Of a stretch of DNA of 64,000 bases, positions 5,285-55,453 are shown piece by piece; positions within the stretch are counted from its first letter, which is position 1; every line of letters starts with the position of its first letter. Source of the stretch: Streptomyces aurantiacus (GTDB lineage: Bacteria; Actinomycetota; Actinomycetes; Streptomycetales; Streptomycetaceae); contig NZ_CP114282.1 of the NCBI RefSeq assembly GCF_027107535.1, positions 295,959-359,958 of the forward strand. The letters run 5' to 3'. The notes under the pieces are model-generated. The model saw only the letters and a program-made list of their open reading frames with translations, was not told the DNA's origin and searched no databases. The position numbers and the translations under genes are program-made.

Positions 5285-6313
5285 CGTGCCCCGAGCCGCC
5301 GACGCCCCGCGCGCACAGGCGCGGAGCACGGACGCGCCGACCGGGGTGAGAGTGTGCAGCACCGTCGTCGCGTGCCGACTGCTGGTGATCAGCCCCGCGT
5401 CCCGCAGCGCGCTGGCGTGCCGGCTGGCCGACGACGCGGACACCCCGGCGGCCCGTGCGATCTCCCCGGTCGTGGCCCCGGCCGCCGAGGCCCACAGGGC
5501 GGTGGCCCGGGTCTGCCCGAGCAGGGTGGCCAGGGACGCCTCGGGGGAGTCCTCCAGGACGCGCCATCCTTGCGGTGACGAGGCCGACGGCTGCTCGTGC
5601 AGCAGCGGGTACATCAGCACCTGCGGCAGTTCGGGGTCGGCGAGCCCGACCGGGCGGTGCCAGCAGAAGTACGACGGCACGAAGAGCATCCCGCGGCCGC
5701 CCAGGTGCAGATCGCGGTCCACGGCGGGGTGGTAGTCGACGCGCAGGACGGGGGCCTCCCAGCACATGGTGGGGCCGAGACCGGCCAGCATGCCCTCGAC
5801 ACCCCCGTCCAGCAGCCCACGGCACCGCATCGCCCGCTCGGTCTCGATACGGGACTGCATCTGTTCCCCGTACGGGGCGATGGCGACCTCGTAGTAGGCG
5901 CGCAGCACCCGCACGAGTTCCTGGCGCGGCCGTGCCTCGGCTAATCGCGGGGCCCATGACGGGGCTCCCACGACGCGGTCGAGCATGTCCAATTCCTCCA
6001 GGACCCGGCTCGCCGGCGTGGCCAGAACGGCCTCCAGCCCGGCGTCGAAACCGTCGGACGCCTCGAACGGAGTGAGGAAATCCGGGAAGTAGGAGGCCCT
6101 CGGGAGCAGCGGCAGCAGCACGGTGTGCAGAGCACGATCGAGTTTCTTCTCCCGCAGCCGGTGGCGGACGGTGCGGAACCACTCCGCGTAGGCCCAGCGG
6201 CCCTGCCGGGTCTGGAAACGGTGCAGGCTGGCGACGATCTCCCAGAACGGATTAGGGGTCGCGGACAAGCGAGTTCTGGCCAGATCGGCGTCGCTGAAAT
6301 GTATGCGGAGCAT
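5261..6313 (-). CDS. ArsR-type regulator with DUF5937 N-terminal domain
   Basis: 350 aa from ATG 6313, preceded by GGGAGAACGAG. The N-terminal 250 residues match the DUF5937-type region found in many Streptomyces regulators (starts MLRIHFSDADLARTRL). A C-terminal winged helix follows, with TTGEIARAAGVSASSASRHA as the recognition helix region and GLITSSRHATTVLHTLTP as the wing. Such proteins are usually DNA-binding repressors without metal-binding Cys, and none is evident here. It is divergent from the inhibitor gene at 6475 with about 160 bases between, so it may control the secreted cassette (inference). Confidence 0.85.
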   Translation of the reverse strand: MLRIHFSDADLARTRLSATPNPFWEIVASLHRFQTRQGRWAYAEWFRTVRHRLREKKLDRALHTVLLPLLPRASYFPDFLTPFEASDGFDAGLEAVLATPASRVLEELDMLDRVVGAPSWAPRLAEARPRQELVRVLRAYYEVAIAPYGEQMQSRIETERAMRCRGLLDGGVEGMLAGLGPTMCWEAPVLRVDYHPAVDRDLHLGGRGMLFVPSYFCWHRPVGLADPELPQVLMYPLLHEQPSASSPQGWRVLEDSPEASLATLLGQTRATALWASAAGATTGEIARAAGVSASSASRHASALRDAGLITSSRHATTVLHTLTPVGASVLRACARGASAARGTSRTGGGL

Positions 6314-6474
6314 CTCGTTCTCCCCCGATGAGCTCAGCTTTTGCGGTCAGCCGCAACAGCATGGCTCGGTGTCAACTTCTCCGCAATGGTGGAACACGCG
6401 GATCGAGCCGTGGACGCGCATTGTGGCTCGATCAGGCACGCACGGATATCGGCCCACTGCGAGGGGAAGATCAA

Positions 6475-6939
6475 TTGAACAAGGCGACCAAGCGGATTCT
6501 GGCCATCGCGGCGGGAGTGATTCTGCCGGTGGGCGGACTGGCGGGCACGGCCACGGCCAGTTCGGCGAGCGATTCGGTCAAAAGCACCGCTTACGTCTCG
6601 ACCGCGGCACCGGCCGGCGAGAAGGCGATCACCGCGGCACCGCCCGGATGCACGGCGACGAACGTGTGCTTCTGGAACGGCACCAACTACTCGGACGGTC
6701 CGGGAAGACTGTCCGGGTCGAACCCGAACTGGACCGCGTTCTCGCACTCCAGCTGTCCGACCGGCACCTGGAACGACTGCGCCTCCTCGGTCTACAACAA
6801 CGGGACCAGCTGTAGCGCCGTTCTGTGGACCACCGCGAACTACGGCGGGTCCAGGCTCACGCTCGGCCGCGGTTCGGGCCAGACGGCTCTGAGCTCCACG
6901 ATGAACAACGCCATATCGTCCAACAACTGGAGCTGCTGA
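6475..6939 (+). CDS. Secreted peptidase inhibitor, I36 family
   Basis: 154 aa. TTG 6475 is chosen because GAGGGGA lies eight bases upstream and the product then begins with a clean Sec signal peptide (MNKATKRILAIAAGVI, hydrophobic core, cleavage near ATAS-SA). The mature part has six Cys (PPGC, NVC, SSC, NDC, TSC, WSC) and CFWNGTNYSDGPGRL, matching the Streptomyces peptidase inhibitor I36 (SMI-like) fold. Known for the family: inhibition of extracellular metalloproteases. It forms a probable unit with the lipoprotein and second inhibitor downstream. Confidence 0.85.
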   Translation: MNKATKRILAIAAGVILPVGGLAGTATASSASDSVKSTAYVSTAAPAGEKAITAAPPGCTATNVCFWNGTNYSDGPGRLSGSNPNWTAFSHSSCPTGTWNDCASSVYNNGTSCSAVLWTTANYGGSRLTLGRGSGQTALSSTMNNAISSNNWSC

Positions 6940-8029: not shown

Positions 8030-8494
8030 GTGCAAACAGAGAAAAGGACGAGGACAGGGACGAAGGAGCGGCGGAAGACCGGGGCCAGGAGCAGGGCGAG
8101 AAGCAGAGCGTTGATCGCTGTCGTGGCAGGGGCGCTCGTTTCGCTGGGCGGCCCGGCGACCGGGTCGGCAGCGGCCGACACCGAAGCCGTGGCGCCGCCG
8201 GGCTGCCCGGCGGGGTACCTCTGTTTCTGGACGGGGCCCAACTTCACCGGCGTCCAGGGCCGGCTAGCGGAGCGGACCTGGATCCCGAACTGGTCCGCGC
8301 TGTCCGGCGCGGACTGTCCTGCCGGAAACTGGTCGAATTGTGCGCAGTCCTTCTACAACAACGCGGTCGTCTGCACGGCGGAACTGTGGTCCGCGCCGAA
8401 CTACTCCGGATCCAAGGTCTCCCTGTCCCGAGGGTCGGCACTCGTGAATCCGCCGATCACGCTGCGCGTCTCCTCCAGCAGTTGGCGCTGCTGA
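8030..8494 (+). CDS. Secreted peptidase inhibitor, I36 family, second copy
   Basis: 154 aa from GTG 8030, with GAGAGGAAG upstream and only 12 bases after the lipoprotein stop. A long basic n-region precedes the signal core [15 protein letters not shown]. The mature domain has six Cys at positions equivalent to the inhibitor at 6475 (PGC, YLC, ADC, SNC, VVC, WRC) and [15 protein letters not shown]. It is clearly paralogous but diverged, so the duplication is not recent. The gene ends only about 17 bases before the junction with the serine-dehydratase remnant. Confidence 0.85.
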
Positions 8495-8511
8495 AGACCA
8501 CGCGCCCCCTC

Positions 8512-8863
8512 GGCACTCGATGATGTTCACAGCCAGCCCGCCCCGCGCCGTCTCCTCGTACTTGACGCTCATGTCGGCACCGGTCTCCTTCATCGTCTTG
8601 ATGACCTTGTCGAGGGACACCTTGTGGGTGCCGTCGCCGCGCATGGCCATGCGGGCGGCGGTGTGACGGCCTTCACCGCGGCCATGCCGTTGCGTTCGAT
8701 GCAGGGGATCTGGACGAGGCCGCCGACGGGGTCGCAGGTGAGGCCGAGGTTGTGTTCCATGCCGATCTCGGCGGCGTTCTCGACCTGTTCGGGGGAGCCG
8801 CCCAGCACCTCCGCCAACGCGCCCGCCGCCATCGAGCAGGCCGAGCCGACCGATGCTGCCAGC
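8512..8863 (-). pseudogene. sdaA: L-serine dehydratase remnant, truncated and frameshifted
   Basis: The leftward strand encodes [35 protein letters not shown] and [13 protein letters not shown], the conserved C-terminal part of iron-sulfur L-serine ammonia-lyase. A frame change near 8664 (apparently a repeated AC dinucleotide) leads to [20 protein letters not shown] and [12 protein letters not shown]. The N-terminal three-quarters are missing, and the natural stop just after the final Cys is lost at the rightward-gene junction. Dead fragment, bounded by a rearrangement on each side. Confidence 0.85.
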
Positions 8864-9882
8864 GTGTCGATCGAGGGTTGTGGGTCTTGGCCGGGCAGCG
8901 GGTCTTCGGGGACCAGTTCGTCGTTGAAGGGGAACGGCCGGGGGTGGAAGTTGATGGCGACGGGCTGGGAGAGCCCGGCGTCCAGCAGGTTGATGTGGGC
9001 GTAGCGGACGTCGAGGGTGAGCGCCGTGTTGATCTGCGCGGCGTGCAGGAGGACGTGCGTGGCGGCGATCCGTATGCGGATCGGGCAGGTCAGGATGGCT
9101 CGGCTCAGGTCCAGGCGGCCGCCGCAGACGATGGGGCCTACCAGGGGCCCGTTGAACGTCGTGTCGGGGAAGTCGGCGTCGCCTTTGAAGCGGGCCCCGG
9201 CGAAGACGGCGTCACGGCCGAACGTCGCCTCGTTGAACCGTGCCCTCTCCTCGATCTGTACCGAGACGAAGACGATTCCGTCGGTGAACGTCACGCCGTG
9301 GAAGAAGGCTTCGCCGAACAGCTGGGCCCGGGAGAACAGGGCCCCAGCGGCGAACCTGGCGTGGTCGAAGGCGGCGTCCGAGCCGAAGAGGGTGTCCTGG
9401 AACCAGGCGGAGCCTTGGAAGTCCGCGTGTTCGAAGGCGCCGCCCATTTCGAAGACGGCTTCCTCGAAGACAGCGTCGCGGTGGAAGGAAACCTCGTCGA
9501 ACAGGGCGTCGTCTGCGAACTGGGTGCACCAGAAGAAGGCCTCGCCGGTGAACGTGACGTCCGTGAAGTCGGCCAGCTCCAGGAAGCGGGCGCGGCCGAA
9601 GTCTGCGTCGCCGAAGGTGTTGCCGACTGCTGCCTTGAGCTCTTCCAGCAGTTCCCGGGTGAAGGGCACCCCGCGGCAGTCCACCGCGGCGCCGGCCGAT
9701 AGCGCCCCGAGCTCCTGCCTGCGTTCCTCCAGTTGCAGGTGGGCCAGGCACCGGTCGTACGGTGCCCACGGCACACCGAAGCAGTCGCCGCGATCATCCG
9801 GGAAACCACAGGCAGGCCAGTGAAGCCGAGGGTTCTGCGGCAGGAAGGCCAGGATGGGGCGGCCCTGATGTATCAGGTTCAC
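8590..9882 (-). CDS. Pentapeptide-repeat protein, C-terminus replaced
   Basis: 430 codons from GTG 9882, which overlaps the upstream stop (GTGA). Residues 1-80 include Cys-rich [11 protein letters not shown]. Residues 95-240 are tandem pentapeptide repeats of A(D/N)F-x-x pattern (for example [26 protein letters not shown]) that fold as a right-handed quadrilateral beta helix. After QPSIDTL near residue 340 the frame runs straight into the sdaA remnant, so the original C-terminal part of the pentapeptide protein is gone. The chimeric frame is open, but the tail is meaningless frameshifted sequence. Function unknown; some family members mimic DNA or act as scaffolds. Confidence 0.7.
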
Positions 9883-10406
9883 CGGGTCTGCAGGGCGCCG
9901 CTGTCGATGAGGCCCTGGATGTAGGGCGGCCAGTCCCGGGCCAGGCTCTGGACGATGCCGTCGTGGACGTTCTGGCGGACCTGCGGGGTGACGTGTTCGA
10001 CGTCGCCGTTGGTGTAGTGCAGGCGCAGGCCTTCGCGGCTGGCGTCACACAGGATGGCGTGAGCCTTCTGTGTGAGCGTGAGATACAGCTGCGGGACCTC
10101 CGCCTTGAGGAGTTCGTCGATGACGGCGTCGTAGTCGATGCCGAGGTCGCCCCAGGTCTTGCCCTGGCTGTCGAGCCACAGGGTGATGTCGGAGAAGAAC
10201 ACGGCCTTGCCCGGGCCGTCTTTCGGGTCATGGGCCAAGCCGGTGGCGAGGTCGAGCGCGGTGCCGGCGCCTTTGCTGACGAGGGAGCGGGAGACCATCG
10301 GTGGGGCGATGACGGCTGCGCATTCCCCCCAGCCGTCGCGGGTTTCGGTCGGCCAGGGCAGTCCCAGTACGAGCCATCCGGCCGGTGACAGCAGCGAGTT
10401 GGGCAC
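9879..10406 (-). CDS. Hypothetical protein
   Basis: 175 aa from GTG 10406 with GGGGGAG seven bases upstream. It starts [19 protein letters not shown] and is a soluble, mostly alpha/beta protein with no signal peptide or recognised motif. It is translationally coupled to the pentapeptide gene (GTGA overlap at 9879), so the two probably acted together before the latter was damaged. Family not recognised. Confidence 0.65.
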
Positions 10407-10552
10407 CGTCGTCTCCCCCTTGGTGTCGTGGTCGGGTGTCGAGTTGATCTTTTCTGTCCAATTGCGGTGCGACAAGGCCGCATTGAGCCGTTGCCAGTAC
10501 AGGGAGCGCGGCGGACCGCGTGGGCTGGGTGGCTTCTTCCAGGGTCTTGTCA

Positions 10553-11249
10553 CTCGTTGCTCTTGTCGGCGACCTGGCGCTGGGCCAGGACGTGACCGGT
10601 GTGGTCCATCGCGGCGAGAAGGGTGACGTACGGGGTGGTGGCGGTGCGTGAGCCGCGCAGGGCCTTGCCGTCGACAGCGATCGCCCGCAGTCCGGGGCAG
10701 GCCGGGGTGGTGCGTGCGGTGAGGAAGGCGCCGATCGCCCGGTCCAGGGCGTCGCCGTCCAGCTGGACGAGTAGACGGCGCAGGGTGTGAGGGTGCGGGA
10801 CGGACACGGTGCCGGAGAGCGGGTCGGTGGGGAAACCGAGAACCCGGCAGGCCCACGCAGGGACGTCGCCGATCCATTCCGTGATCGCGGTGAGCGACCG
10901 GGCACCGGCCAGCACACTCACGCGGCCGCGGCGACCAGGGCGGACAACCGGTAGCGGCGGCCACGGACGCCTCTCGGATCGGGTACCAGATCCAGGAAGC
11001 CAGACAGAGCAACCGCGTCCGCCAGCGGGCCCGGCACAGCGGTCCGGCCCAGCTGGTCCAGCGCGGCAGGCATGGGAGAAGATGCAGAAGCGGGCACGGA
11101 CTCACCAAGTGTTCAGGGGACTTCGACACTCACATGATCACGGAGACCGCGCCTGCCCTGCGTCCGCCCCCTGCCCGAACCGGGGTGCCCCTTCCAAGGA
11201 CGGGCCAGCACGGCACTCCGGACGAAACGTGATCATGTAACGGCCCCTG
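10553..11249 (-). mobile_element. Truncated ISAs1-family element, copy 1
   Basis: 697 bases, reading leftward from a terminal repeat at 11249 (CAGGGGCCGTTACATGATC). It encodes the N-terminal half of an ISAs1-type transposase (VLAGARSLTAITEWIGDVP, CPGLRAIAVDGKALRGSRT) and breaks off at 10553 after AQRQVADKSNE. An N-terminal frameshift near the VAAAA/VSVLAG joint is shared with copy 2. The sequence appears identical to 16302-16998 in opposite orientation. It cannot encode a working transposase. Confidence 0.85.
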
Positions 11250-11263
11250 CTTCTCCGGGGCGA

Positions 11264-12193
11264 TCAGGCCGACTTGGCCTTGACCACCGCGAATTCCACC
11301 GAGGTGAGTGTGTGATTGTCGGCGACGGTCATCCCGGACAGCATCGGCGGGGTGTTGGCCTTTCGCAGGGCCGCCATTTCCTCGGGACCGTTCGCCTCGA
11401 AGTTGCACAAATAGCAGCCGAAGCCGTTCGCTGTGAATGTCGTACCGGTGTCCGACCGTTCGGACGGCTCGAAGGTCAGGATGCCCTGCCCACCGCAAGC
11501 GGGGCAGCCGCCGCCTGAAGCCTTCAGGACGACCTCGCCGCCCTTGAGGACCTCCAACGGGTGCGCGAACCCCTGGTGGAGCGGCGGGGGTGCCTTGAGG
11601 GCGCCCTCCTTGACTTCCGCCGGGAGACCCACGAACCGATCCTCGAATGCGTGCCGGGCCTGGGTGATCCGGAGCTGCACGTCCCGGAAAACCTGGTCCT
11701 CCTGCTCGTTCACCGCGTCCTTGACGGCCTTCGTCCACCGTTCCCAGAAGGCGTCCAACGGCTTGCCGAGATCGCTGAGCAGAGTCTCGATCGTACGGGC
11801 GAGGGGAGAGATCATTCCCTTGGCCTTGGCACTGTCGGGGGCAGCGTGGGCCGCGCCGTTGCGCATCGCGATCAGCAGATCGAGCTGGGAGTCCGGCTGG
11901 AGCACGCCGATCTTGCGGAGGAGGACGATGGCGTCCTTGGCACCGACGGTGCGGACCTTGTCCTCGTCCATCTTGAGGTGCCCGCCGAGGTACAGCATCG
12001 TGTCCGCGTTGCGGATCTCGGTGATGTAGAGCGGGTTCTTAGCGGCGAGGACCGCCTTGGCGAGCTTCTCAACGGCGACACCGGCGTGGAGCGCGAACTC
12101 GTCGTACTCCGGGCGGCCATGGTCATCCATGGCCTTGTGGGCGGCCTTCTTGGCGCCCTTGAAGAAGCTCTCGAAGGAGAGCGAATCGTTCAT
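11264..12193 (-). CDS. HEPN-domain protein with C-terminal zinc ribbon
   Basis: 309 aa from ATG 12193. The N-terminal half is all-helical, with FALHAGVAVEKLAKAVLAA and RNGAAH at about residues 109-114. That fits the R-x4-6-H signature of HEPN ribonucleases and RNA-binding HEPN folds. The C-terminal part has CPACGGQG near residue 228 and CYLC near 258, a four-Cys zinc ribbon. HEPN nucleases commonly act in abortive-infection and toxin systems; activity here is inferred only. It is the last gene of the inverted-repeat island, preceded by its own palindromic operator, so it can be regulated separately. Confidence 0.75.
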   Translation of the reverse strand: MNDSLSFESFFKGAKKAAHKAMDDHGRPEYDEFALHAGVAVEKLAKAVLAAKNPLYITEIRNADTMLYLGGHLKMDEDKVRTVGAKDAIVLLRKIGVLQPDSQLDLLIAMRNGAAHAAPDSAKAKGMISPLARTIETLLSDLGKPLDAFWERWTKAVKDAVNEQEDQVFRDVQLRITQARHAFEDRFVGLPAEVKEGALKAPPPLHQGFAHPLEVLKGGEVVLKASGGGCPACGGQGILTFEPSERSDTGTTFTANGFGCYLCNFEANGPEEMAALRKANTPPMLSGMTVADNHTLTSVEFAVVKAKSA

Positions 12194-12210
12194 GACTAGG
12201 ACATTAGCTC

Positions 12211-12225
12211 CCCTGTACTACAGGG
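12211..12225. promoter_or_regulatory. Palindromic operator upstream of the HEPN gene
   Basis: A perfect 7-1-7 palindrome, CCCTGTA-C-TACAGGG on the plus strand, is centred 25 bases upstream of the HEPN start. TGTA-N-TACA cores are typical of GntR-type repressor sites in Streptomyces. TAATGT lies between it and the ATG on the coding strand and could be the -10. The regulator is not evident within the island. Confidence 0.5.
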
Positions 12226-12255
12226 AGCGATCTCATTCACGGACCGGGCTGCGGT

Positions 12256-12447
12256 CTACTCGGGGACCGGCCGCTTCACTCTGCTGAGCGGGTCAGCGAA
12301 GACGTTGAAGTCGCTGACCGACTTGAGAGCGCGAGGGGGCCAGGAGAACGTCCCCCGCACGGGCCATAGCGGCTCTACGTATAGAGAGAAGTCACCCAGG
12401 CCGATGTCGTACCGGAGGCCCTTGGGGCCCGCGCTGACGGACGTCAT
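12256..12447 (-). CDS. Small protein coupled to the membrane protein gene
   Basis: 63 aa from ATG 12447, which overlaps the upstream stop as ATGA. The sequence (MTSVSAGPKGLRYDIGLGDF...) is compact, beta-rich and aromatic, with no membrane segment. Its coupling to the 12444-13130 gene argues that it is real and works with that product. No family recognised. A frame extending further upstream in the same phase is overlapped by the larger gene and rejected. Confidence 0.55.
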   Translation of the reverse strand: MTSVSAGPKGLRYDIGLGDFSLYVEPLWPVRGTFSWPPRALKSVSDFNVFADPLSRVKRPVPE

Positions 12448-13130
12448 GACGGGGTGCCGTCGTCGCCCGCTGAGGGCTGTGGCGGGTGCGGCAGTCCCAA
12501 AAACTCCCGGAGATCGCGGGCCCGCTGCATGTCCTCCTCGTCCAGCCCGGAGCGCTCGGCGTCGCGTTCCAGCGACTCCAGTTCGTGTTGGGCCTGCTGG
12601 CGTCGGTACTGATTCAATTCCTTCGCGATGACCGGGTTCAGGGCCTGTCTCTCCGGGACGTCCGAGCCTCGGACGAAGGTGCCGAGGAACTTGAGTGCTT
12701 CCGCCAAGACGACGCTGGTCTCCACCGTGTACTCGGGCCAGGGAGGGAGCCCGTACCACTCCTTCATCATTGGGAGCAGTACGAGGACCGGATCGCGCGT
12801 CTCCTTATACGCGTCGGGCAGCAGCATGACGGCGCTGTGAGTCGTGGTGATCAAGGTCTGGCGCTCCCGGTTCCAGGCATCTCGGGTCTCCGCTGTACCC
12901 ATCCCCTGGAAGGTCTGGGCCTCCAGATGCACCTTGAGCTGGGTCAGGGTGTCGAAGCCGCGCTGGGCGTTCGCCTGAGCCTGAGCCAGGGCTGTGGCCT
13001 TGTTAGCACTTTTGGTCTGAAACCATGAGCCCAGCAGGGTGAAACCGCCACCGACCAGGGCACCCAGCAGGGCTATGCCGAACTCCATCGACCAGAGCTT
13101 GTCCAAGAACTCGTTCATGCTGGTCATCAT
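12444..13130 (-). CDS. Single-pass membrane protein, island paralogue D
   Basis: 228 aa. Starts at ATG 13130, 13127 or 13118 are all possible; the upstream GTG lies inside the hairpin element. One transmembrane segment, GIALLGALVGGGFTLLGSWF, lies near residues 14-33. It is followed by a long charged helical domain (KSANKATALAQAQANAQRG...), ending in an acidic coiled-coil-like region (QHELESLERDAERSG). The architecture matches the genes at 14364, 15020 and 15547: short N-terminus, glycine-rich membrane span, W/F-Q border, then a cytoplasmic helical body. Preceded by hairpin element 1; coupled to a 63-residue gene. Confidence 0.7.
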   Translation of the reverse strand: MMTSMNEFLDKLWSMEFGIALLGALVGGGFTLLGSWFQTKSANKATALAQAQANAQRGFDTLTQLKVHLEAQTFQGMGTAETRDAWNRERQTLITTTHSAVMLLPDAYKETRDPVLVLLPMMKEWYGLPPWPEYTVETSVVLAEALKFLGTFVRGSDVPERQALNPVIAKELNQYRRQQAQHELESLERDAERSGLDEEDMQRARDLREFLGLPHPPQPSAGDDGTPS

Positions 13131-13184
13131 GCCGACGGGACCCACTCCGTGGGGATGATCCCGTCAAGTCCTTCTGAGCCGGCT
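13131..13184 (-). promoter_or_regulatory. Conserved hairpin element 1 abutting a start codon
   Basis: The coding strand reads AGCCGG, seven bases, GGACTTGACGGGATC, an inner variable inverted repeat (CCCAC-GGA-GTGGG), then TCCCGTCGGC and ATGATGA. The outer arms GACGGGA/TCCCGTC are identical in elements 2 and 3, while the inner stem differs but can still pair. TTGACG could be a -35 box. No Shine-Dalgarno lies between hairpin and ATG. Confidence 0.7.
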
Positions 13185-13231
13185 GCCTGGCGGACTCATG
13201 CCCCGTCTTCACAGGTGAGCAGCAATACGTT

Positions 13232-13627
13232 CTATCCGAACGGGTTGCCGCCCTGCGCTTGGACTCCGGCTGTGGCGGCTTTCAGGTACGCGACGCAGGT
13301 CTCCCACTGGTTCCACGTGAAGAGGACGGTGCGGGAGTTGTTCGCGATGGCCTTCTGCGCTTCGGCGGTCGCGATCCGGAGCTGTCCGCGGTCCTGCTCG
13401 GTGGCGAGCTGCACGTACCCGTTCACGAGGCGGGTGGGCTCCTTGGACTGCACCTTGATGACGTTGCTGAGGGGGACCACGGAGTCCTTGGCGCCGGTCA
13501 CCTTTCCCATGAATTCCCGCTTGATCTCGGCGCGATCTGCGTAGAGCGTCACGGTCGCGACGTAGCCCTTGAAGACCTGCGCTTCGGGCTGGGGTGCAGG
13601 CGCACCCTTGGAGAGGTCGTATGCCAT
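13232..13627 (-). CDS. Small PH-like domain protein
   Basis: 131 aa from ATG 13627. After a Pro-rich lead (MAYDLSKGAPAPQPEAQVFK) the sequence alternates strands as in bacterial PH-like (DUF4429-type) domains: GYVATVTLYADRAEIKREF, VVPLSNVIKVQSKEPTRL, GYVQLATEQ, ending with a helix NQWETCVAYLKAATAG. No membrane span. PH-like domains often bind partners at membranes, so a link to the neighbouring membrane-anchored proteins is plausible (inference). The assignment is from strand pattern and the 'SNVIKVQ...G(Y)VQL' layout only. Confidence 0.6.
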   Translation of the reverse strand: MAYDLSKGAPAPQPEAQVFKGYVATVTLYADRAEIKREFMGKVTGAKDSVVPLSNVIKVQSKEPTRLVNGYVQLATEQDRGQLRIATAEAQKAIANNSRTVLFTWNQWETCVAYLKAATAGVQAQGGNPFG

Positions 13628-14005
13628 CGGATCAGTGTGCCGTCTTGTCCGTCGGTCCGCGTGGAGATCGCCCTCTGTCCTCGGGATTCCTAGCAAATAT
13701 CAGGTTCATCGCTGCAAGGGTTCTGCATATTGACCCTCGGGTATGGCTTTGTCGTAGGGCCTTCCAGGAGGGGCTTGAGAGCCGGAGGCCCTGCTCACTG
13801 CCCAGGGAAGCGAAGGGGACGAAGAACTCGCCGGGCGTGACCAAGGAATCCAGGCATGCACAGACGTGCCGGGATCTTGGCACGCCTGTCATGGCCCAAG
13901 GTCCCGGAGAAGGGACCTACAGCAGTGGAGATCCTGAACTCAGCTCTTGGCGCCGCTGCCGCGAAGACGAAGGCTGATCGAGTCGGCCGTCTGACGCTTC
14001 ATGGC
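13628..14005. other. Gene-free stretch within the island
   Basis: 378 bases with no convincing coding frame. It must contain the promoter of the leftward PH-like gene, being locally A+T-richer around 13690-13730. The short leftward frame at 13632-13892 is Arg/Ser-rich and unlike a real protein. No repeat of the hairpin element is present here. Confidence 0.4.
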
Positions 14006-14233
14006 TCAGGCGGCCTTCCGAAAGGCATTCCGGGGTGCCCGGGTCCTGGCGGCCAGACCGGCGTTGGAGATGTCCTCGAAGTGGAGGAGCTTCGGGCCCC
14101 GGTCTCCGAGGTCCACCGGCGTCAGGAGGCCCCGGTGGACCCACTGACGGATGGTGCCGGGCCTGACGCCCATCATCAGGGCGGCTTCGTCGTAGGTCAT
14201 GAGGTCCTGGGGGTCGATCTGCTCCAGCGTCAC
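14006..14233 (-). CDS. Small MerR/excisionase-type helix-turn-helix protein
   Basis: 75 aa from GTG 14233, with GGAGG five bases upstream. LMTYDEAALMMGVRPGTIRQ followed by WVHRGLLTP is the classic HTH_17/MerR-like winged-helix motif used by excisionases and small regulators. The remainder ends with a basic tail (RTRAPRNAFRKAA). As the only obvious DNA-binding protein in the bracketed island, it is the natural candidate to act on the repeated hairpin elements or as a directionality factor (inference). Confidence 0.8.
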   Translation of the reverse strand: MTLEQIDPQDLMTYDEAALMMGVRPGTIRQWVHRGLLTPVDLGDRGPKLLHFEDISNAGLAARTRAPRNAFRKAA

Positions 14234-14363
14234 AGCAGCCTCCGGGCAAACAAAAGGTCCCCACCAGATTCTGGCAGGGACCCGAGTTCCGAGCAGGGGC
14301 TACCTGCTGTTTCGGATGTTACGGCGCCCTTGCTTCAAAATGCAAGCACTTGGCCGACGGGCG

Positions 14364-14927
14364 TCAAACGATCCCCTGACGGTCGGTCTGTTCGTGCTGC
14401 TCCCTCTCTGCTACATGGTCCGATAGATGACTGAGAGCGCTGGTGTAGTCGACCGACCTTGCAGGGATTTTCTCTCCCCGCCAGTACGCGCCGAGGACCC
14501 GAGACGCCTCGTCGATGACGTTGCGGACCACGACGAACCGCTGAGGATCGTCGAACTGCTCCGGCGTCAGGTGCTTCCAGTCTGTGAGCATGTCCACCAC
14601 CTCTTCGAGTCGGCTCCTGAATTCCGTGCTGGCGAAACTGAACGTGGCCAGGCGCAAGCGGTCCAACTCCGTGTTGAGCAGGTGTTCCCAGCCGGGTTCA
14701 ACAGCTCTGAATCTCTTGCGGCGAATGAGATCTTTGACCGCGAACAAAGCGTTGGCCGCAGATTCAAAGGCCGCGTCATGCAGGATTGCGGCTCGTTGGA
14801 TCTCCATGGCCTTGGCCTGTCTGTGCTGCTGAAACCACACGCCCCCAAAGGCGGCAAAAGCGCCAGCAATAGTACCTCCGAAGCCGATCAAGGCGGATGA
14901 GATCCCAGGGTCCATGCGGATCATCAT
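14364..14927 (-). CDS. Single-pass membrane protein, island paralogue C
   Basis: 187 aa from ATG 14927 (MMIRMDPGISSALIGFGG). The single membrane span is ALIGFGGTIAGAFAAFGGVW, flanked by QQHRQ. A helical cytoplasmic domain follows (ILHDAAFESAANALFAVKDL, RRKRFRAVEPGWEHLLN). It closely parallels the gene at 15547 at the N-terminus (MxPxxxSxLIGFGG), showing descent from one ancestor, while the body has diverged. Preceded by hairpin element 2, which runs directly into the ATGATG start. No enzyme motif; possible sensor, pore or adaptor. Confidence 0.75.
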   Translation of the reverse strand: MMIRMDPGISSALIGFGGTIAGAFAAFGGVWFQQHRQAKAMEIQRAAILHDAAFESAANALFAVKDLIRRKRFRAVEPGWEHLLNTELDRLRLATFSFASTEFRSRLEEVVDMLTDWKHLTPEQFDDPQRFVVVRNVIDEASRVLGAYWRGEKIPARSVDYTSALSHLSDHVAEREQHEQTDRQGIV

Positions 14928-14982
14928 GCCGACGGGACCAGCCCTCTAGGGGTTAATCCCGTCAAGTCCTCGGCGGCCGGCT
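14928..14982 (-). promoter_or_regulatory. Conserved hairpin element 2 abutting a start codon
   Basis: Coding strand: AGCCGGC, eight bases, GACTTGACGGGATTAACCCC, then TAGAGGGCTGGTCCCGTCGGC and ATGATGAT. Outer arms GACGGGA/TCCCGTC match elements 1 and 3. The inner CCC/GGG pairing is kept although the bases between them differ, which is the pattern expected if the structure is selected. Confidence 0.7.
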
Positions 14983-15019
14983 CACGCTGTGAGGGTGGAG
15001 CACTCATCCTGTAGCGGCG

Positions 15020-15508
15020 TCATGACGGGGCCGGATAATGCTCCCAGACCTCCTTGGGGAAGGGTTGGCGACGGAGGACGGTCCCCATCACAGTCCGAAT
15101 GTCCGTGCAGATGATGACGTACCTCGGAGGCCAGGGCTCGGGGGCCGCCACGAAATCCGGCCGGACGTACATCTCGGCGTGACAGCGCTCCAGGAAGTCG
15201 CGGACCGCCTTGTCGTGAAACCGGAGCGCCTGTTCCTCCAGAGCCCGGCACAACTCCTCGCCAGCGGAACCCCACCCAAAGTAGGCGCTGCTGTTCCGAT
15301 CCGGCACTCCCTCCGCGAAGTGCTTGTGGAGCGCATAGCTGATCTTGATGCACTCGTTGGCTGCCGCCTCGGCAAGGCCGGACAGATGCATCCGCTCGGC
15401 CTCGTGGGCCGTCTTGCGCTGCTGCCAGATCACGGCCCCTGTGGACAAACCCGCACCCACGATGGCGCCTCCAAGGCCCATCAGAGCCGCCAATGTCTCT
15501 GCCTGCAC
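15020..15508 (-). CDS. Single-pass membrane protein, island paralogue B
   Basis: 162 aa from GTG 15508, with GGGAGG ten bases upstream. The N-terminus VQAETLAALMGLGGAIVGAG is the same glycine-rich span as its paralogues, then STGAVIWQQRKTAHEAERMH enters a helical domain. It lacks its own hairpin element and lies 38 bases downstream of paralogue A, so it is the second gene of a two-gene unit driven from element 3. A central FGWGSAGEELCRALEEQALR stretch and a C-terminal WPPRYVIICTDIRTVMG segment are specific to this copy. Confidence 0.7.
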   Translation of the reverse strand: MQAETLAALMGLGGAIVGAGLSTGAVIWQQRKTAHEAERMHLSGLAEAAANECIKISYALHKHFAEGVPDRNSSAYFGWGSAGEELCRALEEQALRFHDKAVRDFLERCHAEMYVRPDFVAAPEPWPPRYVIICTDIRTVMGTVLRRQPFPKEVWEHYPAPS

Positions 15509-15546
15509 TACCTAGACCTCCCAGGTCTTACCAGGTCTGACGGGCG

Positions 15547-16173
15547 TCATGACGCGGGCTCTCCACCGTCGGCGGCGTCCTCCTCGCGAGAGTCGACGTT
15601 GGCGGGGTCGGGATCCTGCATCAGCTCGAAGCGGCGTCGCTGGGCCAGCTCGTGCTGAATGGCCCGTTGCTGCTTTGACCCCGTCCGCTCGGAGAGAGGC
15701 GGGAGGGGGTCGGTACGGATGTAGGCCGACAGGAGTTCAGTCAGCTCGTCCGCCAGCTCCGCCAGCCACCCCACCGCGAAGAAGTGCCGGACACCGGCGG
15801 CCCTGAACTTCCGCATGACGGTCAGGAGGTCCCTCACGCGTGTGCGGAGTTCCCGGTCAGGTATTCGGGCCACCGCCCTCTGGGCCCTTTCCATGTGGCC
15901 GAACACGGTGTTCAGGTATTCGGCGTTCTCGTCGGTGCGCATCGTGGCGACTTCGCCTCTGACGGACTCCAGGAACTCTCCGAGCGTGATCAGCTCGTTC
16001 AGGGCCCTGTCCGCCGCTTCCTGGCCTATCTCCGCGAGGCGGGCCTCCCGGGCCAGCTTCCTCTGGTGGGACAGGGTGAGCCACAGGCCCCCGAAGGACG
16101 CCGCGCCACCCACCAGGGCACCGCCGAAACCGATCAGACCGGAAAGCACTTCTGGTTGCATGACGATCATCAT
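15547..16173 (-). CDS. Single-pass membrane protein, island paralogue A
   Basis: 208 aa from ATG 16173 (MMIVMQPEVLSGLIGFGG). The membrane span is LIGFGGALVGGAASFGGLWL. After LSHQRKLAREARLAEIGQEA comes an all-helical body with many Arg/Glu pairs (RTRVRDLLTVMRKFRAAG) and an acidic, Asp/Glu-rich tail. Same plan as the paralogues at 15020, 14364 and 12444. The start codon is embedded in the downstream border of hairpin element 3, so translation may depend on melting the hairpin or on a leaderless transcript. Confidence 0.75.
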   Translation of the reverse strand: MMIVMQPEVLSGLIGFGGALVGGAASFGGLWLTLSHQRKLAREARLAEIGQEAADRALNELITLGEFLESVRGEVATMRTDENAEYLNTVFGHMERAQRAVARIPDRELRTRVRDLLTVMRKFRAAGVRHFFAVGWLAELADELTELLSAYIRTDPLPPLSERTGSKQQRAIQHELAQRRRFELMQDPDPANVDSREEDAADGGEPAS

Positions 16174-16227
16174 GCCGACGGGACCAACCCCCTGGGGCTG
16201 ATCCCGTCAAGTCCATGCTGGCCGGCT
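16174..16227 (-). promoter_or_regulatory. Conserved hairpin element 3 abutting a start codon
   Basis: Coding strand: AGCCGGC, eight bases, GACTTGACGGGATCAGCCCC, then AGGGGGTTGGTCCCGTCGGC and ATGATGA. As RNA it can pair GACGGGAUCAGCCCC with GGGGUUGGUCCCGUC (two G-U wobbles), giving a stem of about 15 bp directly before the start. This is the most regular of the three copies. Confidence 0.7.
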
Positions 16228-16301
16228 CGGCTACTGGCCGTTCAGACTCTCCAGAACGTCGTCCGAGTACGTCAGGAGGTGCCTGTACGCACCCTCGGGG
16301 T

Positions 16302-17343
16302 CAGGGGCCGTTACATGATCACGTTTCGTCCGGAGTGCCGTGCTGGCCCGTCCTTGGAAGGGGCACCCCGGTTCGGGCAGGGGGCGGACGCAGGGCAGGC
16401 GCGGTCTCCGTGATCATGTGAGTGTCGAAGTCCCCTGAACACTTGGTGAGTCCGTGCCCGCTTCTGCATCTTCTCCCATGCCTGCCGCGCTGGACCAGCT
16501 GGGCCGGACCGCTGTGCCGGGCCCGCTGGCGGACGCGGTTGCTCTGTCTGGCTTCCTGGATCTGGTACCCGATCCGAGAGGCGTCCGTGGCCGCCGCTAC
16601 CGGTTGTCCGCCCTGGTCGCCGCGGCCGCGTGAGTGTGCTGGCCGGTGCCCGGTCGCTCACCGCGATCACGGAATGGATCGGCGACGTCCCTGCGTGGGC
16701 CTGCCGGGTTCTCGGTTTCCCCACCGACCCGCTCTCCGGCACCGTGTCCGTCCCGCACCCTCACACCCTGCGCCGTCTACTCGTCCAGCTGGACGGCGAC
16801 GCCCTGGACCGGGCGATCGGCGCCTTCCTCACCGCACGCACCACCCCGGCCTGCCCCGGACTGCGGGCGATCGCTGTCGACGGCAAGGCCCTGCGCGGCT
16901 CACGCACCGCCACCACCCCGTACGTCACCCTTCTCGCCGCGATGGACCACACCGGTCACGTCCTGGCCCAGCGCCAGGTCGCCGACAAGAGCAACGAGAT
17001 CCCCGCCTTCCAGCCCTTGCTGGACAGCGTCGACCTGACCGGCACGGTCATCACCGCTGACGCGCTCCACACCCAGCACGCCCAGGGCACTGGAAGATCG
17101 AAAACCTGCTGCACCACGTCCGCGACCGCACGTTTCGCGAGGACGACTCCAAGATCCATGCTGGTCATCTCCCGCGCATCATGGCCGGCTTGCGCAACCT
17201 CGCCATCGGCGTCCACCGTCAGGACGGCCGCACCAACATCGCCGCCGCCCTACGTCACACCGCTCGCGACTGGCGAAGGCCCCTGGTCGCCCTCGGCATC
17301 ACCGGATGAATCCGGGCAAACCTCGATCATGCAAGGGACCCTG
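16302..17343 (+). mobile_element. ISAs1-family element, copy 2, inactive
   Basis: 1,042 bases between imperfect inverted repeats: CAGGGGCCGTTACATGATC at 16302 and, complementary at the right end, CAGGGTCCCTTGCATGATC ending at 17343. The transposase frame is broken twice. Near 16629 one base is missing between VAAAA and VSVLAG. Near 17085, after [12 protein letters not shown], about 150-200 codons are deleted, rejoining at [17 protein letters not shown] and running to the natural end LVALGITG. The first 697 bases match copy 1 in inverted orientation. No target duplication is obvious. Confidence 0.85.
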
Positions 17344-19120: not shown

Positions 19121-19695
19121 AGCGGTCCGACGCGTCGAGGAGGCTGTGAGCGGTAGCGCGCGCCGAAGCGTGCCGGGGCAAGCTGTAGGGAAACCGGCCT
19201 TCGCCGGAGAATTGCTGTGTCATTTGCTGTCACCGACCTGCCCGCAGTGAAAGCACCGATTGCTCACCGTGTACCGACGCGGACACTGCTCAACTAAAGG
19301 GTGTGGCACAAGACTGCGGTCACAGGCCCTGGCCTGCCCAAACGCAGCTTTGTGCAACACCCTTCAGGCCGTGTCGGAGTCGTACGGCATTGACGACAAG
19401 TGCGACTGAGCGCTTCAGTCGGCGAGTGCGCGGTCCAGTCGGCGGATTGAGCGCCATCCCATGTCCTGGCAGGTCCAGACTGGTGACTCGTCCCCGGGGC
19501 TGCGGTCGGGTTTGCTCTGGCTGATCCGCAGAACCGTCCTGCACGTCGGGCCTCGGATGGCCTCAGAGGGCGCTGTCTCCGCCCAGGACAGCCCATCCAG
19601 AAGCACCTCGCTGCCCGGCGCGGCGTGTTCCAGTGCCGGAGCGGTTACAGAAAGTATTTCTCCGTCAAGGAATCTGTCGTCACGGGGGCATTGGC
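19121..19695. other. 575-base gene-free stretch before the NACHT gene
   Basis: No convincing coding frame. It holds an imperfect 68-bp inverted repeat (19297-19364) and, at 19406-19426, CTGAGCGCTTCAGTCGGCGAG, which recurs in the terminator hairpin after the NACHT gene at 22584. The NACHT gene thus has related sequence on both sides. Confidence 0.4.
19297..19364. repeat. Imperfect 22-bp-arm inverted repeat, MITE-like or terminator
   Basis: Left arm AAGGGTGTGGCACAAGACTG..., right arm complementary to AAGGGTGTTGCACAAAGCTG..., with three mismatches in 22 and a 24-base loop. GGGTGTTGCAC-type ends resemble terminal repeats of some IS elements, so it could be a collapsed IS or MITE. It could equally be the terminator of the sigma-factor operon. 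Confidence 0.45.
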
Positions 19696-22578
19696 GTGCG
19701 GTACATGCGGCTTGGTATCTGGGGGACGGCACTGATCATCGCAGCTGCCGTCATCCTTGTCGCAGCGCTGAACGAGAAGGGTCTTACCGATCCCGAGATC
19801 CTGATCGCAGTGTTGGGATTCCTTGTGGCCGCCTTCGGAATGGTGCGGACACTGCTCCATGACGTTGCCAAAGCAGAGCACGAGGCTTCATCCCCCGAGC
19901 GGCTGGACCACCTCGCCGGGCGACTAGCCGACGCGGTCAAGGACGAATGGAAGGAGGAGTGGAGACGGCGTCGGCTGCAGGACCCCGATCCGCTGCCCGT
20001 GCCCTGGGCCTTGCCGGAACCGTGGCTGTCCGACGCAAGCGGCGACTGGGACGACACCGTAGACCCCAGCGACCGGTGGGGGAACATCGCCGAGGTCTTC
20101 AACCGGGTTCCTTCCAGGCGGATGGTGGTACTTGGTGCTCCAGGAAGCGGCAAGACGGTCCTAGCCGTGCGGTTCACCCTGGACGTACTACGGCAGCGCC
20201 AACCCGGCGACCCTGTGCCAGTGATCCTCTCGCTCTCCAGCTGGCGGCCGGATCGCGAGAGCCTCAGTACCTGGGCGACTGCCTCGCTGGCCACCATAGG
20301 GATCACACGAGTCCAGGAGCTCTTCGCCAACGACCGGGTGCTGCTGGTACTGGACGGTCTGGACGAGATTCCCCCACCCCTGCGTACCTGTGCAGTGAGC
20401 AGGCTGAACGCTGAGTTGGATACGGCCAGCCCTGTCCTGCTGACTTGTCGAACGCAGGACTATGCCGAGCAGGTCGAGAGTGGGGGTGCCTTCACATCTG
20501 CTGCGGTGGTGGAATTGAGGCCGCCCTCCTTCGACGACGTGAGCACCTACCTCGTACGCACCGCACGACCGATGCGAGGGGCCTCGGGAGAACGGACCAC
20601 GCGTTGGGACCCGGTCCTCACCCACCTACGAGATCATCCGGACGCTCCCGTCTGCCACACCCTGCGCCAGGTCTTCCAGACGCCGCTGATGGTGGCGATG
20701 GCTCGTGCTGTGTACGGCAATGGCAGGGCCGACCCCGCGGAGCTACTCGATCTTCGCTTCACCATCCCCGCAGACCTCGAGCAGCACCTGCTCGAGGGAT
20801 TTGTGCCGGCAGCCTTCAGCGATTCTCCTGATGCTGGCCGGGCTGGTCGGTGGCTCGGGTTCCTTGCCGCACACCTGGAACGCCGTCAAGCCCGTGATCT
20901 TGCCTGGTGGCGCCTGCAAGTGGCGTTGCCGTGGCCGCTTCGCCTCCTCGGGCCGATCCTGCTTCTGGGAGCCGTCGGAGCCGCGATCAGCACCACTCTG
21001 GATCCGACGGCGGGGTGGGGGGCACCCGTGGAGGCCACCGCCTTGCTGATCGGCGTCTGCATCGGATACGTCGTCCTGTCGCGTGGCCCAGGATTGCCGC
21101 TGGTACAACGAGGCCGCGCCCTACGAAGGCTCTTGCCGCTTGCAGGAACGGCCGCCGTCCTTGGCGCCATAGTCGGCACCATGGGAAGCCTGAGTTTCGA
21201 GGTATTCGGCTACAACGGCCCCTGGTGGTTGAGGCATTCTGCATCGGATGCACAGGATTGGCGGTATGAAGCCTGTTTCGCGATGGTCGGAGGCCTGGCC
21301 ACCGCCGTGGTCCTGGCTGTGATCGGCATCGTCAGCGAGCCGGTACCCTCCACTGCGTCCTTCCGCGGCCGTCGCCAGTCCCGGCCAGCCCTGGTTCTCG
21401 CCACGGCCGCTGTGCTGACCGCGGTCGGTTCGCACCTGTTTTGGGGGCGCCACGAACTCGCTACCGTCACCATCAGCGTTTCCGTGGCGGTCACGATGTA
21501 TGCACTGACAGCTGGGCGCCGAGCGAAGGCCAACTCGGTTGTCAGGCGCAGGGATGCATCCCGCCATAGGCCCCCAGGGAGAGCCAGGAGATGGCAGCGG
21601 CTGGGACAGGCGGTAGGCCGGAGTCTGGCGGCTGGGCTAGTTGCAGGATTCGCCCTCGGCGCTCCTCTCGGTCTGGCAGCGGGGACCGCACTAGCCATCC
21701 GGGCTGGTATCTACCAGACGTTTCCCGAAGGCTCCGATGTGTTTGCCCTCCGTCAGGGCATCCACTGCGCGGTCACCCCGGTTGGCTGGAGCCAGTGCAC
21801 GTCGCCGGAGGGCGAGCGATTCGTGCGTACCTCACGTGAGGTTGAGGTTGTCCGTGTCGGCGACTCGGCGACTACGCCGGAGCGGGCCAAGGCAGAATGC
21901 GCAGGAGGGAAGGGGTGCGCCACCTTCCATGGGCTCATCGAGGTTCACGTCCAAGGGGACCGTGACACCGGGATCTCCTTGGACGTAAGGCTTCCCGACG
22001 GTACCTACGCCCACGATTTTGACTTCGTGGGGAAGCTGCCCCCTCAGACAGCTGATTGGCTCTACAGCCCAGGCCCGGGGCTGTTGTTCAGGAGCGCCGT
22101 GGCCTTCGGCCTCACAAGCGGACTGGCCATCGGTCTGGTCAGCGGCATCGCCGCCGCACTGCACAGGTGGCTGTTCTCACCGGTGGACATCGTCTGCGCA
22201 CTGAGTCCGCGAGGGAGTCTGCGTACGGAACAAACGGCAGCGATTGCCCAGGGCCTCATCGTGTTCCTCTTCAGCTTTGCTACCGTTTTGCTATTCCTGG
22301 CTCTCCCAGCAAGTTTCCGGGAAGGCGAGGTCTCGTGGGTCATCTGGCCACTGGCCGGAATCCTTGCTATCGGCCTGAGTGCCTGGGGTTGGTTCCTCAC
22401 TGCACGCCTGTGGCTCTGCGGCACCGGCAAGCTGCCCTGGCGGCTGATGACCTTCCTGAACGAGGCCCATCGTCGCGGAGTTCTTCGGCAAGAAGGCGCG
22501 GTATACCAGTTCCGGCACGCCAGAGTGCAGACGCAATTGGCGACGGCCTACGAACAGCCAGCCTCCGACACGAACTGA
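19696..22578 (+). CDS. NACHT NTPase with multi-pass membrane domain
   Basis: 960 aa from GTG 19696 (GGGGG upstream; ATG 19705 also possible). Two N-terminal membrane spans (LGIWGTALIIAAAVILVAAL and ILIAVLGFLVAAFGMV) precede a NACHT module. This has Walker A GAPGSGKT at about 147-154, Walker B VLLVLDGLDE at about 215-224 and a sensor-like PVLLTCRTQDY. From residue 400 to the end about eight to ten hydrophobic spans alternate with a soluble loop (670-770). NACHT-membrane proteins are known in Streptomyces and STAND NTPases are widely used as phage sensors. Here the membrane part may be the effector (inference). Stand-alone gene with its own terminator. Confidence 0.85.
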   Translation: MRYMRLGIWGTALIIAAAVILVAALNEKGLTDPEILIAVLGFLVAAFGMVRTLLHDVAKAEHEASSPERLDHLAGRLADAVKDEWKEEWRRRRLQDPDPLPVPWALPEPWLSDASGDWDDTVDPSDRWGNIAEVFNRVPSRRMVVLGAPGSGKTVLAVRFTLDVLRQRQPGDPVPVILSLSSWRPDRESLSTWATASLATIGITRVQELFANDRVLLVLDGLDEIPPPLRTCAVSRLNAELDTASPVLLTCRTQDYAEQVESGGAFTSAAVVELRPPSFDDVSTYLVRTARPMRGASGERTTRWDPVLTHLRDHPDAPVCHTLRQVFQTPLMVAMARAVYGNGRADPAELLDLRFTIPADLEQHLLEGFVPAAFSDSPDAGRAGRWLGFLAAHLERRQARDLAWWRLQVALPWPLRLLGPILLLGAVGAAISTTLDPTAGWGAPVEATALLIGVCIGYVVLSRGPGLPLVQRGRALRRLLPLAGTAAVLGAIVGTMGSLSFEVFGYNGPWWLRHSASDAQDWRYEACFAMVGGLATAVVLAVIGIVSEPVPSTASFRGRRQSRPALVLATAAVLTAVGSHLFWGRHELATVTISVSVAVTMYALTAGRRAKANSVVRRRDASRHRPPGRARRWQRLGQAVGRSLAAGLVAGFALGAPLGLAAGTALAIRAGIYQTFPEGSDVFALRQGIHCAVTPVGWSQCTSPEGERFVRTSREVEVVRVGDSATTPERAKAECAGGKGCATFHGLIEVHVQGDRDTGISLDVRLPDGTYAHDFDFVGKLPPQTADWLYSPGPGLLFRSAVAFGLTSGLAIGLVSGIAAALHRWLFSPVDIVCALSPRGSLRTEQTAAIAQGLIVFLFSFATVLLFLALPASFREGEVSWVIWPLAGILAIGLSAWGWFLTARLWLCGTGKLPWRLMTFLNEAHRRGVLRQEGAVYQFRHARVQTQLATAYEQPASDTN

Positions 22579-22583
22579 TACGG

Positions 22584-22626
22584 CTGAGCGCTTCATCTGG
22601 CGAGACTCGCCAACTGAAGCGCTCAG
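22584..22626 (+). terminator. Terminator hairpin after the NACHT gene
   Basis: CTGAGCGCTTCATCTGGCGAG pairs with CTCGCCAACTGAAGCGCTCAG around a single A, a 21-bp stem with two mismatches, six bases after the NACHT stop. Part of the arm recurs upstream of the gene at 19406-19426. Confidence 0.75.
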
Positions 22627-22795
22627 TGTGCGACACGAGGTCGCACCAGGTAAGTAAGGACAGCCGCATGAAGGGAAGTTGAGGAGGCTGGACTTCGGGT
22701 CAGTGTCAGGGCTCGTCCCCTCGCTCCCATGCGTCGCTGGTAACGGCGGGGTGTGAAGCGGAGCGTTCAAGCCCAAGAGCGTCCCGGCCATCGGG

Positions 22796-54641: not shown

Positions 54642-55303
54642 CCCCCTCTGCACACCCCCACACCCCGTCAGCCAGGAAGAAGGAAAGGGGCGGGGATGGG
54701 TGGGCGTGCCTCGGGGGATCGGGGCGCCGTGCTCTTGTTGCGCGTCGGCGGGCCTCCGCGCTCGGGCGACGGGCAAGGCCGGCGCGGAAGGGGACGGGCG
54801 GGGGCGCTGCCGAGCGGTTGCAGGCGCCCCCGCTGATCGATTGCTGAGGCTGTGTCCGTGCCTGCGGCTGTGATTCCGCAATCCTGCAGGGGCTGTTCGA
54901 GGACTGGGAGACCGAGACCATGCACGCCGAGGGCTGGTCCCGCGCCGCCGAACCCAAGGCGCCGCCCGCCCCGCCGGTACATCCCCGTCTCGTACCGCGC
55001 GGGGAAGGCTGAGCCGCGATTCATGCAGGAGCCCGGGACCGAGCGGGGTCCGGGCTCCTGCACCGCACACCGCCGGGGGGAGTCGGCGCGCTGGACCTGC
55101 CCAACGACGTCCGCACCTCAGGGATGCGCAGGGCGTGGCCGTCAATGGCGGCTGCTGTTCTTCCGCTGGGCAGGGCCCCGGCCGAATAGACAGCCCGAGG
55201 GGAGGCGGCCGGTGCGGGGTTAGGCAGTCAGCCTCGCAGGGCCCTCTGCCCCAAGGGGTTGCGGCGGAGGGCCCGCCCCTTTGACCGGTGCGAGGGGGGC
55301 TGT
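54642..55303. other. 660-base stretch with no confident gene
   Basis: Contains a strong hairpin (55025-55061). Just before it is a short rightward frame with a protein-like C-terminus (ILQGLFEDWETETMHAEGWS...PRLVPRGEG) ending at 55012. The frame has no start after an in-phase stop near 54845, so it may be a 3' remnant. Confidence 0.4.
55025..55061. terminator. Strong GC hairpin terminator
   Basis: GCAGGAGCCCGG at 55025 pairs with CCGGGCTCCTGC ending at 55061 around a GC-rich loop. It follows a rightward C-terminal-like frame ending at 55012. Confidence 0.65.
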
Positions 55304-55453
55304 TCAGCGTTTCGTGAGGGCGGCCAGGTAGACCCGCACCAGCTCCGCGCCCGCCGTGCACCGTCCGGTTCCTCTCGGGCACTCGTGGCACGTGCGCAGG
55401 TGTTCCACGTACGTGTCGTAGCTGCGCTGGGCATCGGGTGTCATGGTGTGCAT
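55304..55453 (-). CDS. Small Cys-rich protein
   Basis: 49 aa from ATG 55453 (MHTMTPDAQRSYDTYVEHLR). CHECPRGTGRC provides three Cys, followed by AGAELVRVYLAALTKR. The size and C-x2-C...C arrangement fit a small zinc-binding protein; similar short proteins are frequent in Streptomyces accessory regions. Clean hydrophilic sequence without frame damage. Confidence 0.5.
   Translation of the reverse strand: MHTMTPDAQRSYDTYVEHLRTCHECPRGTGRCTAGAELVRVYLAALTKR

Follow-up and report, generated by a model that had tools for sequence, protein, structure and literature searches.

Introduction

Conserved repeats located directly before gene starts have been described in several groups of actinophages. According to the accessible portions of the reports, the SAS/ESAS repeats of the Cluster K mycobacteriophages (PMC3203893) and the Cluster EF Microbacterium phages (PMC7302621) consist of imperfectly inverted arms, the left one better conserved, around a spacer of variable length, and they are attached to different gene families. 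Cluster EG Microbacterium phages carry start-associated 18-bp inverted repeats of their own, GATCAACCNNGGTTGATC (PMC7302621). The current study concerns a 64,000-nucleotide (nt) stretch of Streptomyces aurantiacus DNA, hereafter the window, in which an island at positions 11250..16301 encodes four paralogous membrane proteins, termed anchors a1 to a4. A 43-bp inverted-repeat element lies directly upstream of three of the four, and the repeats of Clusters K, EF and EG are its closest regulatory kin. The element shares with SAS/ESAS both its position directly before the start and each of the structural features listed above. Unlike them, it has a different sequence, it has no Shine-Dalgarno-like 13-mer of the GGGATAGGAGCCC type where ribosomes would bind, and it is tied to a single protein family, in which it is paired with a motif at the 3' end of the gene. 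The EG repeat resembles by eye the inner arms of the element (GATCARCC/GGTTGRTC), which may be chance; in the text available to us, however, the EG repeats are placed 14-22 bp upstream of starts, have a spacer of 2 nt and are not tied to membrane paralogues (PMC7302621). The arrays described here bear on the role of such start-associated repeats, which the accessible text of both reports leaves open.

For the anchor proteins themselves, the nearest parallel is one of likely function only, with prophage defence cargo that includes a membrane protein, such as Butters gp30/gp31, Sbash gp30/gp31 and CarolAnn (PMC7542560, PMC6426596). As presented in the available sections of these papers, the membrane components of those systems cross the membrane four times and are paired with a cytoplasmic partner, whereas the anchors have one span and their only constant partner is a helix-turn-helix (HTH) gene. 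The two-component organization of RexAB/Sbash type, in which a four-span protein is accompanied by a cytoplasmic one, was not found for the anchors. We give an even chance to the reading that anchor arrays are cassette-borne cargo that the lysogen expresses for exclusion or defence, with a function that we infer from the evidence presented below.

A membrane protein family of Streptomyces

The four anchor genes are all encoded on the minus strand: a1 (15547..16173; 208 residues from the first ATG, with the likely start 12 nt further on at 16161), a2 (15020..15508; a GTG start with a Shine-Dalgarno site and without the element), a3 (14364..14927; likely start 14915) and a4 (12444..13130; likely start 13118). 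The original prediction, made from the letters of the window, had described them as paralogues sharing an N-terminal span with divergent bodies, and of this the paralogy has held. With the profile of alignment A4, which includes them, they score 151-192 bits, and to judge by sequence comparison they are one family along their full length, spans included, rather than one anchor joined to unrelated bodies. Among 63 anchor sequences, the two glycines of a GxxxG motif, G18 and G22, never vary, and G15, R110, R153 and P158 hardly do, the last three lying in the bodies. The architecture consists of a glycine-rich span and a helical body, and one long helix is predicted at residues 16-75, containing the single apolar span (identified by eye). 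Fifteen pairs among six a1 orthologues yield dN/dS values of 0.15-0.35. An HPt/CheA P1 phosphotransfer domain was also considered for a1 and ruled out, as the conserved phospho-accepting histidine is absent.

A profile of 22 members, scored against the 7998 candidates that shared most words with it, found 74 proteins, and every one of these with a named organism came from Streptomyces. At E 1e-3, 99 of 295 genomes of the genus match the anchor profile, 21 of them at no less than 78 bits (counted by hand from the listing); among 197 genomes of the class, four match at E 1e-10, two of these, at 45 bits, belonging to another family. Pfam, PADLOC and PHROGs returned weak and scattered matches only and none of them names the family. 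No homologue of a1 or a4 was found in 50,697 phage records, where related terminases do occur, and none of a4 in plasmid records. Literature titles and abstract openings (mostly open-access, preprints excluded) nowhere describe the family or its element. The analysis brings out an uncharacterised membrane family of Streptomyces prophages together with a regulatory element that sequence searches suffice to locate. A distant fifth member (63 bits, no element) is encoded far from the window at 54921-55430 of the same contig.

Anchor arrays in prophages

In Streptomyces prophages, the anchor genes are found within a recurring gene order: zr215, a DUF2637-like gene, g229, sometimes a PH-like gene, the anchors, the HTH gene, a terS-like gene, terL and portal. 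The labels zr215 and g229 are working labels, terS is named by position alone, and the DUF2637-like and portal labels are tentative or positional; terL matches PHROG 2 (E 7e-43). Parts of this order are absent from many loci, often those at contig ends. The array occupies a fixed site ahead of the terminase region, with a MerR-like HTH gene (14006..14233, minus strand, in the window; PHROG 2474, E 6e-15) closing it. With the window and one duplicate left out, 14 of 37 loci combine anchor and HTH genes, and of these 14, ten also contain a terS-like gene or terL and four a PH-like gene.

Such a constant position before the terminase region, along with a core distribution limited to prophages, would also be expected if the paralogues served the lytic cycle of the phage, for instance in the membrane anchoring of packaging or replication or in the timing of lysis, with the HTH gene beginning the late region. 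We consider this possible, albeit with reservations. Arrays consist of one to four divergent members and their make-up changes from phage to phage, which is unlike an essential structural function; in addition, stray members are retained outside recognised prophages, and the phage records contain related terminases without any anchor homologue.

Array-mates are at most 31% identical in all 28 pairs (12 arrays, 31 members), while 21 of the 31 members have a relative of at least 60% identity in another of 26 loci. In 5000 shuffles, which ignore relatedness, a mean identity as low occurred in 0.2% and a maximum as low in 1%. It is conceivable, if rather unlikely, that Streptomyces prophages carry a modular and non-redundant membrane exclusion repertoire of self-contained cassettes, each with a palindrome acting as promoter-operator of a leaderless transcript, an open reading frame and a terminal palindrome, that phages exchange whole at the conserved ends, and that selection keeps array-mates dissimilar and thereby provides each prophage with an exclusion barcode.

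The 5' element and signals at the start codon

The element, an inverted repeat followed by ATGATG, precedes a1 (16168..16210), a3 (14922..14965) and a4 (13125..13167), each on the minus strand. It is part of a 69-bp direct repeat (family D1), present in three copies, that contains TTGACGGGATCAGCCCC-n-GGTTGGTCCCGTCGGCATGATG, and the D1 core has three occurrences in the 9.9-Mb genome, all inside the island. Pattern scans yielded 11 stretches from viral sequences, two of them on contigs of the existing set, and eight from genomes, two of which, from Paraburkholderia and Gottesmanbacteria, were dismissed as chance. After six of 30 rows had been discarded as chance, all 24 retained copies immediately precede an anchor open reading frame (ORF), a uniformity that is overstated because the copies were chosen by pattern. 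A covariance model of the element matched 34 of 295 genomes of the genus at E 0.01, of which seven reach at least 37 bits and the rest are weak, and three of 297 genomes of the family at E 1e-5, all belonging to the window's genus. Among isolated phages, eight records matched at E 2; the match inspected, that in RetrieverFever, falls within an opposite-strand gene and was attributed to chance.

The start codon is mostly found 12 nt past ATGATG and in frame with it. In six of 29 cases, however, it lies at 11 nt and out of frame, with one variant at 9, and ATGATG therefore seems to be conserved for something other than coding. A Shine-Dalgarno site is nearly absent from the element genes, in which ATGATG-N5/6 makes up the conserved stretch ahead of the start. 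The median score for pairing with the anti-Shine-Dalgarno sequence is -1.7 for 29 element genes vs -6.2 for 12 internal array genes (Mann-Whitney p 5e-8, uncorrected for relatedness). According to the accessible text of two studies, 21-22% of mRNAs in two Streptomyces species are leaderless, with TANNNT as their -10 sequence (PMC4895711, PMC8780764). Because of these frequencies, together with the lack of a Shine-Dalgarno site and the out-of-frame starts, the element is most simply read as a promoter for leaderless mRNA, with the repeat serving as operator. CATGAT would serve as the -10 sequence, and the inverted repeat would be bound by the HTH protein or by a host factor. By eye, TTGC..-N17-CATAAT-like promoters are also visible before HTH genes themselves (window 14300-14350; prophage loci L004, 5645-5690, and L005, 5640-5675), and the palindrome within their spacers differs from phage to phage, as expected of phage-specific operators.

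The element might instead act as RNA, with a hairpin just ahead of the start codon that controls translation and is perhaps bound by a protein. The sense strand does fold better than the antisense strand in 20 of 23 copies, 91.9% of cells pair in the right register and the loop length is variable. Still, compensatory change was found in none of 11 pairs, nor in the right register, and Rfam gave no match, which leaves an RNA structure unproven. Furthermore, the right arm has been lost yet the left arm retained in loci L089, L094 and L095, and a translational role would have to operate near starts that lack a Shine-Dalgarno site. We therefore think an RNA element unlikely.

Cassette boundaries

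The second conserved signal of anchor genes is found at their 3' ends. The motif TGACGCCCGTC overlaps the a1 stop codon (15539..15549) and recurs at the a3 stop codon (14356..14366), both on the minus strand. When one mismatch is allowed, the palindrome GACG.CCGTC is present at or just past the stop codon in 27 of 47 anchor members vs 18 of 293 neighbouring genes. A complete cassette thus comprises the 43-bp element, the ORF and the stop-codon palindrome, and some members are devoid of one or both signals.

Similarity between orthologues starts at the element edge (-7 to +1) in 42 of 65 alignments, at -20 to -8 in 14, further out in four and further inside in five. Where the query bears the 3' motif, similarity ends at that motif in 19 of 39 alignments, earlier in 14 and later in six, and both cassette ends coincide with the limits of similarity in 13 alignments from 6 locus pairs. 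These figures come from alignments given at most 500 nt of flank, with directional rows that are not independent, and without control genes. The pattern fits an exchange of whole cassettes, either by homologous or by site-specific recombination, and mosaic exchange at these conserved ends would account for the differing make-up of the arrays.

Should the ends be sites of a dedicated recombinase, the arrays would be integron-like. The confinement of homology at both ends in those 13 of 39 alignments is as such a scenario predicts, as are the 3' motif of L016, L013 and L025, located 10-13 nt past a stop codon that comes earlier, and a TGACGGG/CCCGTCA half-site common to both ends (by eye). However, the same pattern is expected from ordinary homologous recombination between near-identical elements, homology ends elsewhere in 20 of the 39 alignments, and all cassettes observed come from one protein family. 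A dedicated recombinase accordingly seems quite improbable to us.

Stray members

Anchor genes also exist outside recognised prophages. In the stray locus L088, two members stand directly upstream of a PstI-type methylase/endonuclease pair, and single strays lie near GmrSD (L089), a TIR-NB-ARC-TPR protein (L023) and a Cas12f1-like TNB protein (L090). In 20 stray loci, PADLOC models were run on 90 of the 113 neighbour proteins; the matches among the first 25 of 171 families include restriction-modification and type IV restriction, along with many helicase models that fall on the same two proteins. As there was no control set, we do not claim a defence enrichment of the strays.

Several further neighbours were recorded. 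A Pycsar effector domain protein (PF18967, E 1e-14) is encoded at 3893-4339 of L104, a few kb from two anchor genes, and an Abi_C protein (PF14355, E 3e-23) at 507-1340 of L024, about 4 kb upstream of an anchor gene; the start of an ORF similar to the latter is found at the left edge of L134 and a similar one in L137. An ORF that looks HNH-like by eye comes after one and the same anchor subfamily in L010, a prophage (ORF at 6099-6734), and in L089, a stray locus (ORF at 8359-9081). It was rejected as a constant partner, since it adjoins the array only in these two loci and Pfam gave no HNH.

Proposed function of the arrays

If anchor arrays are lysogen-expressed exclusion or defence cargo, several steps can be proposed. 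The element would give rise to leaderless mRNA in the lysogen, and the anchor proteins produced there would pair through the GxxxG span with their bodies facing the cytoplasm. Each subfamily would then act at the membrane against different incoming phages, by exclusion or abortive infection. Support for this reading is provided by the prophage synteny with its terL, the mosaic map of the island, the uniform position of the element copies before anchors, the start codon and anti-Shine-Dalgarno data, the 3' motif counts, the divergence of array-mates, the a1 dN/dS values and the strays beside restriction-modification, GmrSD and TIR-NB-ARC genes. If it is true that anchors exclude phages, the arrays would constitute an exclusion code that can be read and, in laboratory Streptomyces, put to the test one cassette at a time.

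Other observations weigh against this reading. Firstly, CATGAT deviates from TANNNT at position 1, and TTGACG lies about 30 nt ahead of it, too distant for a -35 sequence, with none at normal spacing. Secondly, five first genes without the element also score -6.2 for anti-Shine-Dalgarno pairing; this is due to AGGA within CAGGAT, and their CAGGAT-like box may be a ribosome site as readily as a -10 sequence. Thirdly, the HTH gene was not found in L023, L088, L089, L090, L092 and L104, where the element is present, and the regulator may therefore be something other than the HTH protein. Finally, the number of array-mate pairs above 50% identity was as small in 8.8% of the 5000 shuffles, which is not significant, and other strays lie near ordinary genes, e.g. 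nitrate reductase in L096.

Origin of the island

The window is the right end of a 360-kb contig, C1, in a 9.9-Mb genome of two contigs. The island is bracketed by inverted insertion sequence (IS) arms at 10553..11249 (minus strand) and 16302..16998 (plus strand), which are 697 bp each, 100% complementary and 5052 nt apart; no third near-identical arm was found in the genome. A composite transposon would have a full IS copy on each side of its cargo; of the two copies here, the left one was scanned and contains a 123-residue ORF with a Pfam match to DDE_Tnp_1_assoc only.

What lies between the arms is debris of Streptomyces prophages in three pieces, and this anatomy, as well as that of the arrays, is well supported. 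The end of an array is represented by a1-a2-a3-HTH and the start of an array by the PH-like gene and a4, while the third piece, derived from another part of such phages, holds the HEPN gene. Non-coding DNA at 13832..13962 (minus strand) precedes the terS-like gene in prophages (L004, 7023-7150; L022; L011; L019), and the mosaic map would place the join of array end to array start somewhere within 13655..13831. The PH-like gene itself (13232..13627, minus strand) is 88-92% identical in four prophage loci; the name it was first given is based on a sub-threshold DUF4429 match (E 0.017). At 12433..12446 (minus strand), the a4 3' motif is followed by the join to a remnant of a longer phage ORF. A homologue of the L004 prophage terminase was not found in the window's genome, in a search that came back empty and had no positive control, and no terminal repeats of contig C1 were found when its opening 20,000 bases were compared with the final 14,959.

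The remnant is the 63-residue ORF (12256..12447, minus strand), which the original prediction had counted as a coupled gene. It is mostly a C-terminal remnant and not an independent gene: 59 of its residues match, at 71% identity, the C terminus of a longer phage ORF. The HEPN protein (11264..12193, minus strand) was confirmed as such: R111 and H116 of the R-X4-6-H motif and four cysteines are invariant in 42 sequences, and a HEPN-like fold is predicted. It is a putative RNase that differs from HEPN domains of the MntA-HepT type (2hsb, 1o3u, 1wol) by an added zinc-ribbon-like C-terminal part with the four invariant cysteines, and no partner gene was recognised for it. In the sole prophage contig found with both, it lies about 22 kb from the array, and in the loci tested neither it nor the 63-residue ORF adjoins any array other than the window's. 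HEPN is cargo of the same kind of prophage, encoded outside the array. In L137, two tandem HEPN-type ORFs (9354-12364; 64% and 33% identical to that of the window) stand after a longer homologue of the 63-residue ORF.

These results bear directly on the proposal that the eight genes form a single conflict or signalling system with HEPN as its effector. Their common strand and the inverted IS copies around them, both noted originally, have been confirmed, the small HTH protein has proved to be MerR-like, and one prophage contig does hold both HEPN and array. The system as such is unsupported and we deem it very improbable, because HEPN is found outside the array elsewhere, the 63-residue ORF is a remnant and joins divide the pieces. 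Homologues of HEPN and of the 63-residue ORF are scattered, whereas the paralogues and the HTH gene remain associated, and a conflict role suits prophage cargo. The 69-bp repeat with its 43-bp element and the stop-codon palindrome had both been overlooked.

Outside the island, the window also encodes a NACHT-domain protein (19633-22578; PF05729, E 3e-11), the gene of which is flanked by 23-24-nt repeats at 19403-19446 and 22581-22627.

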